A DNA stretch of 63,238 bases from Gemmatimonadaceae bacterium (GTDB lineage: Bacteria; Gemmatimonadota; Gemmatimonadetes; Gemmatimonadales; Gemmatimonadaceae). Within the stretch, counting starts at the first letter, position 1. Every line of letters starts with the position of its first letter. The position numbers were made by a program, and so were the translations under genes. Below are positions 20,313 through 28,855 of the stretch, piece after piece. The stretch spans positions 1 through 63,238 of the forward strand of contig JACCWE010000168.1 of the NCBI GenBank assembly GCA_013697785.1, in the 5' to 3' direction. The notes beneath the pieces are model-generated. The model was given only the letters and a program-made list of their open reading frames with translations, did not search any database and had not been told where the DNA came from.

Positions 20313-20912
20313 TCAGCTCGTGGCGTGCAGCGCGCGCCACACTTCGTCGACGCGTTTCTCCAGGGCTTCGATGCTCCCCTCGTTCTCGATGATGTAGTCC
20401 GCGCGCGCGCGCTTGAGCTCGGCCGGCATCTGCGACGCGATCATGTTCATCGCCTCGGTCTGGCCGAGGGCGCGCTCTCGCGTCAAGCGCTCGAGGCGAA
20501 GCGGGCGTGGCGCGTCGACGAGGACGATGCGGTCGAAGTCGTTGACGAGATTGCGCTCGAAGAGGAGCGGGATGTCGCACACGACGGTCTCGTCGCCGCG
20601 TTCGCGCGCTTCGTTGATGAGGTCGTCACGAAGGCGGGAGACTTCCGGGTGAACGATCGAGTTGAGCGCCTCGAGCTCGGTGGGCTCCTGGAAGACGATC
20701 TGGCGGAGCGCCACACGGTCGAGTCCGCCATCGGCTTTGAGGATATCATCGCCCCAGCGCTCCACGATTTTGCGGTGGCCGTCGCTGCCAACCGCAACGG
20801 CGTCTCGAGCGAGCTCATCGGCATCGATGAGCGTTGCACCGCGGTCCGCGAACATCTGCGCAACGGTGGACTTTCCTGAGGCGATATTGCCTGTGAGGCC
20901 GATCAGTAGCAT
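20313..20912 (-). CDS. coaE: Dephospho-CoA kinase
   Basis: Kinase of 199 residues for the last step of CoA synthesis. MLLIGLTGNIASGKSTVAQMF holds the P-loop (GNIASGKS, 8-15); TLIDADELARDAV is the substrate-binding DAD motif, IVHPEVSR and CDIPLLFERNLVNDFDRIVLVDAP complete the family signature. The start is the ATG at 20912; the frame runs 12 codons further but the conserved N-terminus begins here. It lies between tdk and gcvH with small gaps. Confidence 0.94.
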   Translation of the reverse strand: MLLIGLTGNIASGKSTVAQMFADRGATLIDADELARDAVAVGSDGHRKIVERWGDDILKADGGLDRVALRQIVFQEPTELEALNSIVHPEVSRLRDDLINEARERGDETVVCDIPLLFERNLVNDFDRIVLVDAPRPLRLERLTRERALGQTEAMNMIASQMPAELKRARADYIIENEGSIEALEKRVDEVWRALHATS

Positions 20913-20957
20913 GGAGTCACAATAGGGTGAAAACGTCCCCTCGCGCAATAGAAAAAA

Positions 20958-21572
20958 TCACAGCAACGGAACTTGATCCTCGTCACGACGGGGCAACTCG
21001 TGGCAGTGGCGGCAGCGCGCCTCGTACGACTCTCGCCCGCCGACCATGATCGTCGGTGAGTCGTAGCGTGCGGGACGCCCATCGATCAACCGTTGATTGC
21101 GACTCGCCGGCCCACCGCATACAACGCAAATGGCGTGCAGCTTGTCGACGAGGTCGGCGACGGCCATGAGCTGCGGCACCGGCCCGAATGGCTCGCCGCG
21201 AAAATCCGTATCCGTGCCCGCGAGGATCACGCGCACGCCGCGCGACGCCAGCGTCCCGACGAGGGAGATGATCCCCGCGTCGAGAAACTGCGCCTCGTCC
21301 ACCGCGACGACATCTGCGTCGTCGCGGAGGTTCTGGGAAATCTGGAGCGACGAGTCGACGGGAATCGCCTCGACGACGCGCCCATCGTGGCTCGAGATGG
21401 AGAAGACGCCGCCGTACCGATCATCGAGATGCGACTTGAAGATCTGAACGCTCTTCTTCGCGATGATCGACCGGCGCACGCGGCGGATGAGCTCTTCGCT
21501 CTTGCCGCTGAACATGACACCGGTGACGACTTCAACCCATCCGCGTCGTGCCCCGAAGAAAACCGGGTCCAT
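20958..21572 (-). CDS. tdk: Thymidine kinase (type II)
   Basis: Salvage kinase of 204 residues that phosphorylates thymidine. P-loop [12 protein letters not shown] (G18-S25), the DEAQF motif ([13 protein letters not shown]), the lasso-domain [12 protein letters not shown] and a C-terminal CRHCHEL give the four zinc cysteines of the type II enzyme. It begins 6 bases after the helicase-like gene stops, so both are probably on one transcript. A pyrimidine-nucleoside phosphorylase elsewhere in the window (49974) acts on the same nucleosides. Confidence 0.95.
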
Positions 21573-21578
21573 CGCCGT

Positions 21579-23471
21579 TTACGAGGGGCGGCGCGACCGG
21601 GGCGGCCCATCGCGACGCGGCGCGTCACGACGAGGCCCTGACGACGGTCGCTCTCCGCGCGAGCTCGGCGCACCACGATCCGACCGTGGCGCGTAGCTGC
21701 GCGTGCCGCGATCCGACGAGCCGCTGCGCTCGGGACGCGAGCCGCGATCCGAAGAGCCGCTGCGCTCGAAACGCGGACTCGAGCTCCGCTCGCCGCGATC
21801 TCCACGATCACTGCGCTCGGGGCGATCACCGCGTGCCGAGCGGCTGGAAGGCGCGTCGTTGTCGACGCGCATCGTCAGCCGTTTTCCACGCACCGTGATC
21901 CCGTTCATCTTGTTCGCGACCGCTTCCGCCACCGGCGTCGAGATCTCGACGATGGAGTGCGTGTCACGCAGCTCGATCTTGCCGATCTGATCGGAGCTGA
22001 TCCCCGACTCGTTCGCGATGCTGCCGACGAGGTCGCGCGGCGTCATGCCGTCGGCCTTGCCCGCGTTCACGAACAGCCGGCTCATCGCACCACGCGACTC
22101 GGGCGTGCGCGACGGTGCGCCGCGCGAGAAGCCGCCGCTCCGCGGGGCGCTGTCACGCGAGCCTCGCTCCGGACGCGCACCTCGATCACGATCGGGGCGC
22201 TCGCCGCGAGGCGCTCGCTCACCACGATCACCGCGGTCACTGCGCTCGCCACGATCACTGCGCGGGCGCTCTTCACGATCCGCGCGCTCGGCGCGCTCGG
22301 TCGGAGCAGCGCGCTCAACCGAAGGCGGGAGGATGTGATCGGTCTTTGGAGCCTTCTCCGCCGGCTTCAGACTCTCGCGCTCTCGCTCGAGCATCCGAAG
22401 CGCGGCAGCTGCGATCTCGACGCCATCGAACTCGGCGAGCAGCGGCTCGAGCGCGAGCAGCTCGCGCGCGTTGACGCCATTCGCCAGCGCCGCGCGAAGC
22501 TCGTCGCGCACCTTCTCGTCCCGCGACCGCGCGCGCGCGCCCGGACCCGAGAGCACGAACGGCGTGACGCGACCGCCGCCCGCAAGCACGCGCAGCGCCG
22601 GAATCTGGCGCGCCGTGGCGAGTGCGATCACCGCAGTGCCTCCATCCGCGAGCGTCTGCAGCGCTTCCGCCGACATCGGCTGCTCGTACAGCACGATGAG
22701 CGCGACATTCTCCACCGGCTCACCGCGCGTGATGACGATCGACGGCTCCTCGTCGGAGATGCCGAGCGCGCGGAGTACATCCGCGACTTCCTTTGCCGCT
22801 TCGTCCGAGCGAACGAATACCGCTGCGCGCTCCGGATCGGTGTCGTCGAGCAGGCGACGGAAGGCGCTCTCGCGCGCCTGCGCTGCGATCGCGACGTAAC
22901 GGAGATCGACGGCGATCTCTTCGACGACGGCGACCGGCTGGCTGCGGCGCGCGCGACGCGCGTAGCGCTCGGCGAGCGCCTCGACGGCCGGCGTCATGTG
23001 CGACGCGACGATCACGCGTGCCGCTTCCTTCGGCACTTCGGCCATGACCGCTTCGAGCGGCTCACCGGCGGCGTCATTCATCACGTCGGCCCAGGCGAGC
23101 ACCAGCGTGGTGACGGTATCGAGCTTGATCGCGGACGCGCGAATGAGCTCGAGGATGTCGGACGGAGTGCCGGCGACGACGGTCGCGGGGCGGAGACGCT
23201 GGAGCCGGGCTGCGCGGCGCCATGCGGTGACGGGGAGTACTCGCGCCGGCGTACCGGTTCGCGCGCGTGTCGCCGCCTCGGCGATCAGGACCGCGGTCTC
23301 GGAATCGGGGGTGAGGATGAGCAGCTGGGTTTCGGCGTTCTCGGGATCCAGGCGCTCGAGCGCCGGCTCAATGAACTGCGAAATAGCAGCCGCATCATGC
23401 GGCAGGACATGCAATACGTTCTGATTGCGGGCGACTGCAGGTCGCTCCCGCTCTTCCAAGTCTTGCTCCAC
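21579..23471 (-). CDS. Degenerate DEAD-box helicase with DbpA-type RNA-binding domain
   Basis: Protein of 630 residues aligned by eye to DEAD-box helicases but lacking the catalytic residues. The Walker A position reads LPHDAAAIS (23-31) instead of a GxGKT loop; motif Ia is LILTPDSETA (51-60), Ib is GTPSDILEL (101-109), motif II is LVLAWADVM (123-131) instead of VLDEADxM, and motif III is ASHMT (156-160) instead of SAT. After a weak second RecA-like region come an Arg/Asp/Glu-rich stretch (about 380-461), a DbpA-like RNA-binding fold (about 462-539, starting MSRLFVNAGKADGMTPRDLV) and an RGG/RSD-like tail to the end. It probably binds structured RNA without ATP hydrolysis. It heads the run with tdk, coaE and gcvH. 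Confidence 0.72.
   Translation of the reverse strand: MEQDLEERERPAVARNQNVLHVLPHDAAAISQFIEPALERLDPENAETQLLILTPDSETAVLIAEAATRARTGTPARVLPVTAWRRAARLQRLRPATVVAGTPSDILELIRASAIKLDTVTTLVLAWADVMNDAAGEPLEAVMAEVPKEAARVIVASHMTPAVEALAERYARRARRSQPVAVVEEIAVDLRYVAIAAQARESAFRRLLDDTDPERAAVFVRSDEAAKEVADVLRALGISDEEPSIVITRGEPVENVALIVLYEQPMSAEALQTLADGGTAVIALATARQIPALRVLAGGGRVTPFVLSGPGARARSRDEKVRDELRAALANGVNARELLALEPLLAEFDGVEIAAAALRMLERERESLKPAEKAPKTDHILPPSVERAAPTERAERADREERPRSDRGERSDRGDRGERAPRGERPDRDRGARPERGSRDSAPRSGGFSRGAPSRTPESRGAMSRLFVNAGKADGMTPRDLVGSIANESGISSDQIGKIELRDTHSIVEISTPVAEAVANKMNGITVRGKRLTMRVDNDAPSSRSARGDRPERSDRGDRGERSSSPRFERSGSSDRGSRPERSGSSDRGTRSYAPRSDRGAPSSRGERPSSGPRRDAPRRDGPPRSRRPS
21582..21854 (-). 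repeat. Low-complexity Arg/Ser/Asp/Gly tail repeats
   Basis: DNA coding for about 91 residues of degenerate units such as ERSGSSDRG (seen twice almost exactly) and RSDRGA. Such charged RG/RS tails are common on RNA-binding helicases. Both strands look repetitive, which gives spurious antisense open frames. Confidence 0.7.
22089..22334 (-). repeat. Low-complexity Arg/Asp/Glu linker repeats
   Basis: Codes for roughly 80 residues of tandem degenerate units (SDRGERSDRGDRGERAPRGE and similar) joining the helicase-like part to the RNA-binding domain. Probably a disordered, RNA-contacting linker. Confidence 0.7.
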
Positions 23472-23562: not shown

Positions 23563-24771
23563 GTGACCGAAACCACGACGCTGCGCGCGTTTGCGCCCTC
23601 CGCGAACGTCGCATTTCTGAAGGAATCCGCCACGATCGCCGTTTCCGCGCGCGCACGGGCCCTCAAGGCCCAAGGGAGGAAGGTCATCGACCTCGGCGCC
23701 GGCGAGCCCGATTTCGACACGCCGGAGTTCATTCGTCGTGCGGGGCAGAAGGCGATCGACTCCGGCGCGACTAAGTACACGGCGACGGAGGGGATCCTTC
23801 CGCTTCGCGAGGCTATCGCCGCACAGACGAATGCGCGCTGGAGCGGCGACGACAAGATCGTAGCGCAGGAAGTGGTCGTGTCGAACGGCTCGAAGCAGTC
23901 GCTCTTCAACGCGTGCTTCGCTCTCTTCGGTGAGGGCGACGAGGTGCTGATCCCGACGCCGAGCTGGACGAGCTATTACGAGATGGTCGCGCTCTCCAAG
24001 GCGAAGCCGGTGTCGGTAATCGGCGATCCCGCGAACGGTCTGAAGGCGACGGCGGCCTTTCTCGACGCCGCATCGACGCCGCGGACGAAGGGGATCATGC
24101 TCAACTCGCCGTGCAATCCGACGGGTGCGGTCTACAGCACCGACGAGCTGCGCGAGATCCTCGCGCTGGCCGAGGAGCGCGACTGGTGGGTGCTGAGCGA
24201 CGAGATCTATCGCCGCATCTCGTTCGATGGTCCCGCGGCATCGGTGCTCGATCTCTCCACGCGCCGCGATCGCCTGGTGGTGATCGATGGCGTCGCGAAG
24301 GCGTACGCGATGACCGGGTGGCGCATCGGGTGGACGATCGCGCCGCGCGCGGTGAGTGCGGCGATGGGCGCATTTCAGTCGCACACGACGTCGAATGCCG
24401 CTGCGGTGTCGCAGCATGCGGCGCTCGAGGCGATCGTGAACGTGGATGCGGCGGAGAAGGCGATCACGCACATGGTCGCGCAGTTCAAGGCGCGGCGCGA
24501 TGCGGTGGTGAAGGCGGCGCGCGTGGCACCGGGGCTCAACTTCGTCTATCCCGAGGGCGCGTTCTATCTGTACGCGAACGTCGCGACGGAAAGGGGCGGC
24601 GACGGCACCGCGTTCGCGGCGGCGCTACTGGAGAAGCACGACGTCGCGATCGTCCCCGGCGCAGCCTTCTTCACGCCGGACTGGGTGCGCCTCTCATACG
24701 CGGCCCCGAGCGAGCACGTGATCACGGGCGTGGAGCGGCTGGTGGAGCTGTATCAGTCGTACGGCGGCTAG
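23563..24771 (+). CDS. Class I/II PLP-dependent aminotransferase (aspartate aminotransferase type)
   Basis: Fold-type I aminotransferase of 402 residues. VIDLGAGEPDFDTPEFI, KYTATEGILPLREAIA, NSPCNPTGAVYS, SDEIYRRISFDG and the PLP-binding VAKAYAMTGWRIGW (Schiff-base K246) are all in place. The pattern matches the AspC/PatA I-gamma group that uses aspartate or prephenate. The likely start is GTG at 23563 (VTETTTLRAF), where homology begins; no strong ribosome site is visible, so an upstream start remains possible. It is divergent from the helicase-like operon. Confidence 0.9.
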   Translation: MTETTTLRAFAPSANVAFLKESATIAVSARARALKAQGRKVIDLGAGEPDFDTPEFIRRAGQKAIDSGATKYTATEGILPLREAIAAQTNARWSGDDKIVAQEVVVSNGSKQSLFNACFALFGEGDEVLIPTPSWTSYYEMVALSKAKPVSVIGDPANGLKATAAFLDAASTPRTKGIMLNSPCNPTGAVYSTDELREILALAEERDWWVLSDEIYRRISFDGPAASVLDLSTRRDRLVVIDGVAKAYAMTGWRIGWTIAPRAVSAAMGAFQSHTTSNAAAVSQHAALEAIVNVDAAEKAITHMVAQFKARRDAVVKAARVAPGLNFVYPEGAFYLYANVATERGGDGTAFAAALLEKHDVAIVPGAAFFTPDWVRLSYAAPSEHVITGVERLVELYQSYGG

Positions 24772-24780
24772 GCGGCCTCG

Positions 24781-25764
24781 CTAGTTCGCTTCGGCCCTGC
24801 GCTCGTCGAGGCACCAGTTGGCGCGCGTGCGATAGATCTCCTGCCACTTGCCCTCGCGCCAGCCCAGCACGGAGAGGAAGGTGTCGCCGCCGAACTGCCA
24901 GCCCTGCAGCACGATCTCATCGACGCCGTCGCCGTCGAGATCGAGATGGTCGAAGTAGCGGCGGAAGGCGGCGGCCGCGAGCGGCCCGTTGATGCGGTGC
25001 GAGAAGGTCGCGTGATACTGGCCCGACGCATCCTTGTCGGCAAAGACGACGAGGTGCGTCGTGCGCGTTGCGATCGACGCCGGCTTCACGGCGCCCTCGT
25101 CAATGAACGAGGCGAGAATGGTGGGCGACGCACTCGCGCCGGTGTAAAACGCGATTGCGCGGAAGCTCAGCGAGTCGAGCTTCGCTTCGTTGATCCCCAC
25201 CGACTTTGCGACCTCGTGCGAGATGGTCTTCGCGATGCGATTGACCGAGTCCTGATTCATCGGTGCGCCGGAGTGCGGCTTCCCCATCGTTGCCGTCGAC
25301 GCCAGGAACTCCAGCGTGAAGTCGGAGGCGAGGCGTCCGTTCACTCGCACGCTCGACATCGGCGTCAGCGTCGCGCAGCCGGGAAGAGCATACAGTGCGT
25401 CGGCGGTGTCGGACCACATCCCGCGCTTGATGTCGACGGTGCCATTCGCGAGACCGCCCTGATAGAGCGGATAGCTCTTGCCGGCGTGCTGATACAGGTC
25501 GTCGAACTTGTGCCATCCGGCGGGAGACAGACGAATCGCCTTCAGCTTTCCTCCGACGATCGCCGCGATCGGAACCATACGCGGATCGCTGCTCTCGCCG
25601 AACACCTGGAAGAGCACGTCGGGCTTTCCGGCGAGATCCAGCTCCTCGCCCGGGGAGAGCTGCGGCGGCCCCGATTTCTGGCCCGCGCGCACGAACTCCT
25701 TTGCCTTGTCGCATCCGGTAAGGACCATTAGGATGGTCGCTAAGCTCAAGAGTCTGGAGATCAC
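24781..25764 (-). CDS. Secreted lipoprotein of unknown function
   Basis: Protein of 327 residues with a short lipoprotein signal: GTG start at 25764, hydrophobic VISRLLSLATILMVLTGC with lipobox LTGC and a lipidated cysteine at residue 18. The mature part is soluble. Near the C-terminus, DHLDLDGDGVDEIVLQGWQFGG looks like an FG-GAP/EF-hand type calcium-binding loop. No enzyme signature recognised. It is divergent from the NurA-like gene with only 6 bases between the two start codons, so their promoters must overlap one another's coding sequence. Confidence 0.7.
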   Translation of the reverse strand: MISRLLSLATILMVLTGCDKAKEFVRAGQKSGPPQLSPGEELDLAGKPDVLFQVFGESSDPRMVPIAAIVGGKLKAIRLSPAGWHKFDDLYQHAGKSYPLYQGGLANGTVDIKRGMWSDTADALYALPGCATLTPMSSVRVNGRLASDFTLEFLASTATMGKPHSGAPMNQDSVNRIAKTISHEVAKSVGINEAKLDSLSFRAIAFYTGASASPTILASFIDEGAVKPASIATRTTHLVVFADKDASGQYHATFSHRINGPLAAAAFRRYFDHLDLDGDGVDEIVLQGWQFGGDTFLSVLGWREGKWQEIYRTRANWCLDERRAEAN

Positions 25765-25770
25765 AGCGGA

Positions 25771-26805
25771 GTGAAAGAGTTGGCGATGGATGGGGCGAGC
25801 AGTGCGGACGACAGGAAAAACGGCGCCTTCGAAACCCTCCGAAGCGTGCACGCCGCCCAGCGACATCTTCTGCGCCTGGTCCCCAACGTTCGCACGGCCA
25901 CCGGTGGTGGATCGCCGCTGGAACGCCTGGAGCGGGACATGGAGCTCCCGCATGTGATAGACGCGGAGGGCGCGGAGGATGCAACTTTGCGCGCGCGACC
26001 GGTTCCCGGCGCTCCCGTCCCTGCGTTTCGGGCCTTTCTCGACGGCACTCAGCGCAGCCAGCTGCTGGGGTGGATCGGCTCACTTCCGCTGGTTTACGGA
26101 ACGTCCGGGGCCGTCATCCGCGAGCGCATCGAGCGCCGTTTGGTGACCTGGCACACACCGCTGGTTGAACACCGCATCTACGCGCCTCTCGCCTACGCCC
26201 CACGCGAGGAGCTCGAGGGCGCGCTCGGAGCGCAGCTCGAGGACACCACGAAGCCCGGCCCCGACGGGACGATCCCGGCTCCGCACCCGACGCTTCTCCT
26301 CGAGCGCGCGACGCTGGCTGTGTCGCGCGACCGCGAGCGGCTCGAGCTCTCTCTGGCCGAAAGCTGGTGCGCGAGCCGCCCGGACGATCCGATCATGATC
26401 GACGGCGGCATCGGGTCCAGCGAAGCGGTGGCGAGCTCCGCGTGCGCCGTCGGCGTCGTGAAGAGCCACCGCACACTCTACGCGAAGGGCGAGGCGCTGA
26501 ACGTGGTGCTCGCGCTTTCGCGCGGCGAGCGGTCGAGCGTGATCCGGATAGCGCCGCGCGCACGGAGCGAGGTGCTCAGCTGGTATTTGCGGCTCCGCGC
26601 CACCGATGGACGAGACGCGCTCTGGGGACTGGTGCGCGTGGAGATGCGCATGATCGACTCGCCCGGAATCACCGCGCGCGCCGACGAGATCTCGCGATGG
26701 CTGCTCGCGGAGTCGTCGCCGCTGGCCGCGCCGGACCCGCGCTGGGACCGGATGGCATACGGGATCCGAAGCGCCGAAGAGTTTCTCCGCGCCACCACGA
26801 ATTAG
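25771..26805 (+). CDS. nurA: NurA-like 5'-3' nuclease
   Basis: Protein of 344 residues matching the NurA nuclease layout. The first acidic motif is FLDGTQR (D91), the second IMIDGGIGSS (D211), followed twenty residues later by VVKSHRTLY (K231-Y237) and a late ALWGLVRVEMR strand. In archaea NurA is the nuclease that digests the 5' strand at DNA ends in complex with HerA. Here the HerA-like ATPase gene follows 103 bases downstream, which strongly supports the call although sequence similarity alone is modest. GTG at 25771 opens the frame; the ATG at 25786 (MDGASS) is an alternative. Confidence 0.68.
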   Translation: MKELAMDGASSADDRKNGAFETLRSVHAAQRHLLRLVPNVRTATGGGSPLERLERDMELPHVIDAEGAEDATLRARPVPGAPVPAFRAFLDGTQRSQLLGWIGSLPLVYGTSGAVIRERIERRLVTWHTPLVEHRIYAPLAYAPREELEGALGAQLEDTTKPGPDGTIPAPHPTLLLERATLAVSRDRERLELSLAESWCASRPDDPIMIDGGIGSSEAVASSACAVGVVKSHRTLYAKGEALNVVLALSRGERSSVIRIAPRARSEVLSWYLRLRATDGRDALWGLVRVEMRMIDSPGITARADEISRWLLAESSPLAAPDPRWDRMAYGIRSAEEFLRATTN

Positions 26806-26908: not shown

Positions 26909-28855
26909 ATGACCGCACCGCTCGGGCTCGTCGTCGCGACGGAACGCACGCCCAACACTCCGCATCAGTTCCAGTTCTGGACGGCGATCGATTCCCCCGT
27001 CGGCATCGGTACGATCGTGCGCGTTGACGGGCGGCAGCCGGTGGACGGACACATTCCGCATGTGTACGGCGTGGTGACCGAAGGCTTCAGCTATACCGAT
27101 CTCGCCTCGCCGCTCTTCGATGTACTCGGCCACGACGGCGATCCGGGGCAGGCCGCGTTCGCGCCGACGGAGCGCGCGGAAGTGCGACTCTACGTCGCGG
27201 CGGTGCTGCGCCACGTTCCCGAGGAGCCGCTGCAGCCGGTGCCGATGGGCGAGGTTTTTCTCGCGACGGAGGCGGATGTCGCCGTCGCGCTGCGAATGGA
27301 CACGTATCTGCGCGATGGCGCGAGCACTGGCATCCCGATCGGGCTCTATCGCTCCGGCGGCATGGACTCGGCCATCTACCTCGACGCGGAATTTCTCGTC
27401 GGGCCCGAAGCCGCGCATCTCAACATCACCGGCGTGTCGGGGCTCGCGACGAAGACGAGCGCAGTGGAGTGGCTGATGGCCTCGCTCTTCGCTCACTTTC
27501 CGAAGAGCAAGGGCTCGGTGGCCGCGGTGTGCTTCAACGTGAAGGGTCCCGATCTCTGCTTCCTCGATCAGCCCGCGGAGCTCGAGGAAAACGACCGCGC
27601 GATGTACGAGACGCTGGGCGTTCCATGCGCGCCCTTTCCCGATGTTCGCTACTTCGCGCCGTACAAGGCGGACAACGTCTCGCTCAACACGCTGCGCTCG
27701 AACGAGGAGCTGTCCGCGAACGTCCAGCCGTTGACGTGGGGGCTCCGCGAGGTGTTGCAGTTCGCCGAGGTGCTGCTCAACCGCGATGACGTCGATGCCA
27801 AGGCCGATGCACTGATCGACTTCATCAAGGAGCGGGTGCTCGACCGCGACTTCGAGGATCGCGTGCTCAAGCAGAAGCATCGGGTGCGCTCGTTCGCGGA
27901 TCTCGAGGGATGGTTCCGGGATCTGCTCAGCGGACTCGAGGATCAGGGGAGCGAGCACTGGCGCACACATCACGTTGCGACGATCCGGAAGGTGCGGAAC
28001 CGGCTATCGAATATTTCCACGCGTTGCGCGGGACTCGTCACCAACGACGGCCATACCAGCGACCTGCCGTGGGGGGACTTCACGGATCGTGCGGTGTATG
28101 TAGTGGACGTCGCGCTGGCGGAGGAGGATGCGCAGGACCTCATCTTCGCGCGTATCGTCTCGAAGCTGCGCGAGCATCTCGAGCGACGCGATCTCGGCGT
28201 CACGCACGTCGTCGTGTTCGTGGATGAGCTCAACAAGTATGCGCCAGCCGATGGACCCGACACGTACGTTCGGAAGATGCTGCTCGACATCGCGGAGCGT
28301 GGTCGGTATCTGGGGCTCGTGCTCTTCAGTGCGCAGCAGTTCCGGTCGCAGGTTCACCGGCGTGTCGTTGGCAACGCGGGAACCGCGCTCTATGGACGAA
28401 TGGATGGCGATGAGCTCGCAACGCCCGGCTATGCCGTGCTGAGCGCTGCCACGCGAACGAAGCTCGCAACGTTGTCGAAAGGACAATTGATGGTTCGGCA
28501 CCCGCATTTCACACAACCGATCTTCGTCTCGTTTCCACGCCCTGCGGTGATGCGCGGGCGCGATGGCATGGAGCGCTTTCCGCAGGCGGCCGATGTGCCG
28601 CTCGACGTCGGCGTGCTGCGTCAGCTCCGTCGCTTCGAGCCGACGCTGACACTCGCATGGGTGCAGGATGTCATCGGGCTGTACGAGGAGGAGGACGTTT
28701 TGCGCGCGTTGCACGCGACGCTCGCCCATGCTCCGGAGAAGGCGGGCGCGTATTTCAAGGCGCAGTTCAGAAAGATCGTTGGGGCGGCTCCGGCTCCTGC
28801 CGTGGCGCGCACGCCGCTCCGCGCACTCCCGGATGATGATCCCTACGCGATCTGA
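26909..28855 (+). CDS. herA: HerA-like DNA translocase ATPase
   Basis: Protein of 648 residues of the HerA/FtsK superfamily. An N-terminal beta-barrel-like HAS domain (about 1-130) is followed by the ATPase core: P-loop NITGVSGLATKTSAVEW (174-190), an unusual form lacking the GxGKT spacing; Walker B VVVFVDELNKYAP (434-446); and GRYLGLVLFSAQQFRSQVHR, the polar motif typical of HerA. HerA forms a hexamer that loads on DNA ends and drives NurA. The ATG at 26909 has GAGG just upstream. A secreted orphan overlaps its last 23 bases, and SbcD and SbcC follow. Confidence 0.82.
   Translation: MTAPLGLVVATERTPNTPHQFQFWTAIDSPVGIGTIVRVDGRQPVDGHIPHVYGVVTEGFSYTDLASPLFDVLGHDGDPGQAAFAPTERAEVRLYVAAVLRHVPEEPLQPVPMGEVFLATEADVAVALRMDTYLRDGASTGIPIGLYRSGGMDSAIYLDAEFLVGPEAAHLNITGVSGLATKTSAVEWLMASLFAHFPKSKGSVAAVCFNVKGPDLCFLDQPAELEENDRAMYETLGVPCAPFPDVRYFAPYKADNVSLNTLRSNEELSANVQPLTWGLREVLQFAEVLLNRDDVDAKADALIDFIKERVLDRDFEDRVLKQKHRVRSFADLEGWFRDLLSGLEDQGSEHWRTHHVATIRKVRNRLSNISTRCAGLVTNDGHTSDLPWGDFTDRAVYVVDVALAEEDAQDLIFARIVSKLREHLERRDLGVTHVVVFVDELNKYAPADGPDTYVRKMLLDIAERGRYLGLVLFSAQQFRSQVHRRVVGNAGTALYGRMDGDELATPGYAVLSAATRTKLATLSKGQLMVRHPHFTQPIFVSFPRPAVMRGRDGMERFPQAADVPLDVGVLRQLRRFEPTLTLAWVQDVIGLYEEEDVLRALHATLAHAPEKAGAYFKAQFRKIVGAAPAPAVARTPLRALPDDDPYAI

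Follow-up and report, generated by a model that had tools for sequence, protein, structure and literature searches.

The closest described relatives of the protein reported here are the DEAD-box RNA helicases CshA (5ivl), DeaD (CsdA) and DbpA, with which it shares two RecA-like domains (RecA1 and RecA2), a dimerization domain, a DbpA-type RNA-binding domain (RBD) and a basic tail, not all of them present in every member, and its profile similarity to them is significant along the entire length. In contrast to these enzymes, it has no DEAD-box motifs, no Q motif and no IVa-V-VI stretch, and ATPase activity is not expected. A comparable arrangement of core, dimerization domain, RBD and basic C-terminal tail is found in Hera from Thermus thermophilus, which forms a stable dimer through its dimerization domain and binds rRNA fragments with its RBD (PMC3695512). 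Hera is, however, an active ATP-dependent helicase, and its RBD recognises RNA elements other than those of YxiN. A DEAD-box-derived protein that lost its catalytic motifs and is still conserved has a precedent in Utp25/Def of the yeast SSU processome, a DEAD-box pseudohelicase essential in ribosome assembly (PMC9539457). Unlike the protein under study, Utp25 comes from a eukaryote, retains motif Ia together with partial versions of the Q, IV, V and VI motifs and has no DbpA domain reported, and close kinship between the two is not claimed. In bacteria, PriA from Deinococcus radiodurans is a lineage-conserved pseudohelicase that retains nucleic-acid binding without ATPase activity (PMC4504706), but it is a DNA helicase of another family, involved in replication restart. 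The literature searched for pseudohelicases, with many subscription journals outside its coverage, yielded no bacterial DEAD-box-type case. Here we describe a gene found in a 63,238-nucleotide contig of a Gemmatimonadaceae bacterium (JACCWE010000168.1; this whole stretch is hereafter referred to as the window), the product of which is almost certainly such a pseudohelicase.

Results

The features of the locus are compiled in Table 1. As stated in the original prediction, the frame is open over 630 codons; the stop-to-stop frame comprises 635 codons and, since only five of these precede the GTG, there is no space for a Q motif 5' of the start. Neither stops nor frameshifts were found in the pseudohelicase loci examined. 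Two elements described as kept were recovered as well, namely the DbpA-like C-terminal domain (PF03880, 1.8e-23, above the Pfam cut-off) and the RG/RD-rich segments, which correspond to the linker and the tail (25% Arg).

Table 1. Features of the pseudohelicase locus and positions in the window.
Feature	Position	Strand	Basis or remarks
coaE (dephospho-CoA kinase)	20313..20948	minus	next gene downstream of tdk
tdk (thymidine kinase)	20958..21572	minus	conserved neighbour, 6 nt downstream of pseudohelicase stop
Pseudohelicase gene (P0001), 630 aa	21579..23471	minus	GTG start at 23471, stop 21579-21581; orthologues
Arg-rich low-complexity C-terminal tail, residues 539-630	21582..21857	minus	
DbpA RNA-binding domain (RBD), residues 465-535	21867..22079	minus	Pfam
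RG/RD/RE-rich linker, about residues 372-460	22092..22358	minus	
DeaD/CshA-type dimerization domain, residues 316-366	22374..22526	minus	best conserved block of core
Shortened RecA2-like domain, residues 186-310	22542..22916	minus	IVa/V/VI stretch missing or unrecognisable
Degenerate RecA1-like domain, residues 14-175	22947..23432	minus	Q motif missing; profile matches and motif alignment
Motif III position, ASHMT in place of SATxP	22992..23006	minus	alignment
Motif II position, AWAD in place of DEAD	23085..23096	minus	alignment; order-level signature AW.D / AWPE
Motif I (P-loop) position, VLPHDAAAISQF in place of QAATGTGKTAAF	23373..23408	minus	alignment
Class I/II aminotransferase	23563..24771	plus	divergent, conserved upstream neighbour, 91 nt intergenic

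Searched as a single sequence, the window protein matches the Pfam DEAD profile below threshold (5.9e-5) and reaches 1e-31 to 1e-21 with the NCBIfam DbpA, DeaD and CshA profiles, well short of the cut-offs set for these, and its closest solved structure is that of CshA (5ivl, 1.2e-18). A profile built from 30 family members aligns to the same structure with an E-value of 9.7e-41 over positions 8-355, a stretch that covers the two RecA domains as well as the dimerization domain. In hhalign comparisons with intact helicases, the members from f1 (the GTDB-type family of the window genome; f1 to f7 lie within its class and f8 in another class) reached 99.9% and E 2e-31 over 352 columns of independently aligned sets, and those from f4-f6 reached 100% and E 3e-50. 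Both approaches reveal homology over the two RecA-like domains of DEAD-box RNA helicases (SF2). The dimerization domain (PF25399) scores 14.9 bits in the window protein against a cut-off of 23, is spanned by the family-profile match to CshA and shows the strongest conservation within the family (EPLL..D...AAA..LLE). An AlphaFold2 model of residues 1-378, obtained from a two-sequence alignment, displayed a pLDDT of 39. Judged by these profile comparisons, the 630-aa protein is a descendant of a DeaD/CshA/DbpA-type DEAD-box helicase.

The motifs were read by aligning the window protein with intact helicases from the same genomes. Motifs I, II and III had been listed as replaced, in accordance with the alignment (VLPHDAAAISQF, VLAWADVM and ASHMT, respectively); that list overlooked the loss of the Q motif and motif IV and of motifs IVa, V and VI, the latter three mostly by deletion. 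The claim that motif Ib is kept did not hold, as TPSD is found at the TPGR position (variable in relatives) and the TP had been taken for TPGR; motif Ia reads TPD.E. DEAD of motif II and SAT of motif III are replaced in all family members inspected, the RecA2 of the family lacks the IVa-V-VI stretch in the profile alignment, and motifs IVa, V and VI (HRxGRxxR) are deleted or unrecognisable in all pseudohelicases inspected. By this reading, the window protein has lost all motifs with which a helicase binds and hydrolyses ATP or grips RNA, and the loss of ATPase activity can be predicted with very high confidence from the disappearance of all nucleotide-binding motifs.

Same-genus orthologues are 82-93% identical to the window protein, and a search of genome contigs with this protein alone matched only a same-genus relative (a 'Gemmatimonadetes bacterium' MAG, 91% identity). 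An orthologue with the same losses occurs in 27 of the 29 other f1 genera sampled, the two without it being incomplete genomes, and the motif losses are identical in all 31 orthologous f1 loci; no orthologues with intact DEAD motifs were found. Pairwise dN/dS values within the genus, determined by a simple Nei-Gojobori count, are 0.10-0.18 for the dead core and 0-0.12 for the RBD, with 0.04-0.05 for the neighboring tdk. Searches of the phylum with profiles A2 and A5 detected the family in f1-f6 and did not find it in six f8 genomes or in f9 (one genome); likewise, the viral contigs searched contained no relative. In a quick tree, 62 pseudohelicases from several families form one clade (SH-aLRT 100, stem length 1.05), which may branch from the phylum's own DbpA-type helicase (support 79). 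The gene order, with the divergent aminotransferase followed by the pseudohelicase, tdk and coaE, is common to f1 and f2. The shared losses, the monophyletic clade, the dN/dS values and the conserved gene order bear out the original view of a selected pseudohelicase, and the window gene is strongly supported by these comparisons as a conserved protein under purifying selection across the class.

Retention of the motifs differs among families. In the two f6 proteins the Q motif and a GxGKT P-loop are still present, DEAD has become DGAA or DGAS, and motifs V and VI are missing; in f4 and f5 the Q motif is kept and the P-loop is broken (e.g. GPGSGT), and neither the Q motif nor Walker A is present at any f1-f3 locus. 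Based on this graded retention, the loss of the DEAD, SAT and RecA2 motifs is, as aligned, common to f1-f6, and that of the ATP-binding motifs looks stepwise. At the motif II site the proteins of the order now have mostly AW.D or AWPE. The f6 orthologues L084 (999-2921) and L091 (706-2517) display an apparently intact Walker A (GSGSGKT or SAGSGKT) together with the Q motif, SAT also being gone, and might bind ATP without hydrolysis. The DbpA-domain proteins of f7 (four read) represent a further diverged branch. Proteins L131-L134 of this family were not among the class-profile matches listed, yet they match at 1e-25 to 1e-31 when tested directly, and the census may underestimate the breadth of the pseudohelicase family.

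The RBD is present in 21 of the 30 full-length f1 members and absent from the other nine, with at least six changes of state on the f1 tree, and the Arg-rich tail is found in all 30 (19-33% Arg). According to the DbpA-domain census, five genomes of f1 lack this domain altogether. The pseudohelicases at L028, L030, L031, L033, L035, L037, L038, L040 and L044 have no RBD and keep the Arg-rich tail, and at least four genomes among these loci are without any DbpA domain. As the domain is missing in nine of the 30 members, binding of helix 92 cannot be a shared essential function in the RBD-less proteins of f1. In YxiN and Hera the main chain of the IGxI segment reads a guanine (PMC3695512), and I499-G500-x-I502 of the window RBD is located at the position of these guanine-binding main-chain contacts in YxiN. 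The residue equivalent to K427 of YxiN is Asn in the window protein and Gly in DbpA of E. coli, and consequently the specificity of the RBD cannot be read off.

Further upstream of the pseudohelicase, two adjacent ORFs on the plus strand, 25771-26805 (344 aa) and 26909-28855 (648 aa), have no Pfam match at 1e-3 and are conserved in the same-genus locus L001, where they also adjoin the pseudohelicase region. Judged by eye, the 648-aa product looks like a HerA-type ATPase, for which the 344-aa product could be a nuclease partner. A 390-aa ORF on the minus strand (24781-25953) also has no Pfam match, and a shorter version of it occurs in L001 (3504-4487).

Discussion

In order to account for these observations, we hypothesize that the conserved DEAD-box pseudohelicase encoded by the window gene forms dimers and serves, independently of ATP, as an RNA-binding scaffold or chaperone that may take part in ribosome assembly. 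This is the best explanation overall and one that we favor with moderate confidence. The protein would no longer use ATP, would dimerize via the retained DeaD/CshA-type dimerization domain and would bind RNA through the DbpA-type domain, where present, and through the Arg-rich tails. It may thus function as a scaffold or an annealing chaperone, most likely on rRNA in large-subunit assembly, perhaps recruiting one of the intact RhlE- or DeaD-type helicases of the cell. The role as an RNA-binding scaffold or chaperone appears probable; its assignment to ribosome assembly in particular is put forward only tentatively, and the neighboring tdk, coaE and aminotransferase genes, which are not ribosome genes, count against it. 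A clamp in the DEAD-box sense, similar to eIF4A-III and requiring ATP, is unlikely, given that motifs Ia, Ib, IV and V, which serve to grip RNA, have disappeared too.

Alternatively, the pseudohelicase could be a regulatory subunit that forms heterodimers, via the shared dimerization domain, with the cell's own intact DbpA/DeaD-type helicase and regulates or targets this enzyme. In fact, the window genome harbors an intact DbpA-type paralogue on contig 138 (G000) in which DEAD, Helicase_C, DeaD_dimer and DbpA domains are all present, and no block of the pseudohelicase is better conserved than its dimerization domain. Nevertheless, the DbpA-domain census identified the pseudohelicase as the only DbpA-domain protein in 20 of the 23 f2/f3 genomes and in 21 of the 23 genomes of f5, and the same is observed in one f4 genome and in the four f7 genomes read, about 45 genomes in total. 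No intact DbpA-type helicase is among the class-profile matches listed for the f2, f3 and f5 genomes with a sole pseudohelicase; these matches reach about 1e-33, and intact DbpA-type helicases score 1e-45 or better. Being the only DbpA-domain protein in about 45 genomes, the pseudohelicase cannot as a rule depend on an intact helicase of the DbpA type, and an obligate heterodimer with such an enzyme is ruled out as a general mechanism. We therefore consider a regulatory subunit improbable for the family as a whole; in f1 and f6 a regulatory heterodimer may occur. It is also conceivable, if rather doubtful, that in several families the pseudohelicase took over the rRNA job of the DbpA/DeaD helicase entirely, the active DbpA-type enzyme being absent and its dead relative with the same RBD remaining as the sole protein of the DbpA type.

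Somewhat less likely still is a neofunctionalised ligand-binding or signalling protein, in which the altered motif II site and the shortened RecA2 would give rise to a novel pocket or interface, with RNA binding being of secondary importance. The dispensability of the RBD in part of f1, its repeated changes of state under continued selection on the core, and the common occurrence of the AW.D/AWPE signature in the order are in accordance with this possibility, but the presence of the Arg-rich tail in every full-length f1 member and the retention of the RBD in most of the class speak against it. A chance resemblance to helicases, with a Rossmann-like domain of unrelated origin joined to a DbpA RBD, would agree with the sub-threshold Pfam DEAD match and the low pLDDT, yet it is very improbable in view of the full-length profile matches (E 1e-40 and 99.9%) and of the Q motif and GSGSGKT retained by f6 relatives. 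A decaying or freshly broken helicase gene, whether pseudogene, frameshift or assembly error, would explain why every catalytic motif is gone, but has hardly any probability given loci without stops or frameshifts and clade-wide losses, and a recent defect or assembly error is ruled out by the orthologues, the dN/dS values and the synteny.

The scaffold or chaperone that we propose would be a bacterial DEAD-box-type pseudohelicase retained throughout an entire class. Such a protein is probably labelled by automatic annotation as a helicase or a DbpA-domain protein, which would hide its nature. Moreover, living genomes display stages of motif loss, from the P-loop and Q motif kept, through the Q motif only, to none, and the family offers the opportunity to test the ATP-free use of a helicase fold, as well as the need for ATP in the function of DbpA and DeaD.
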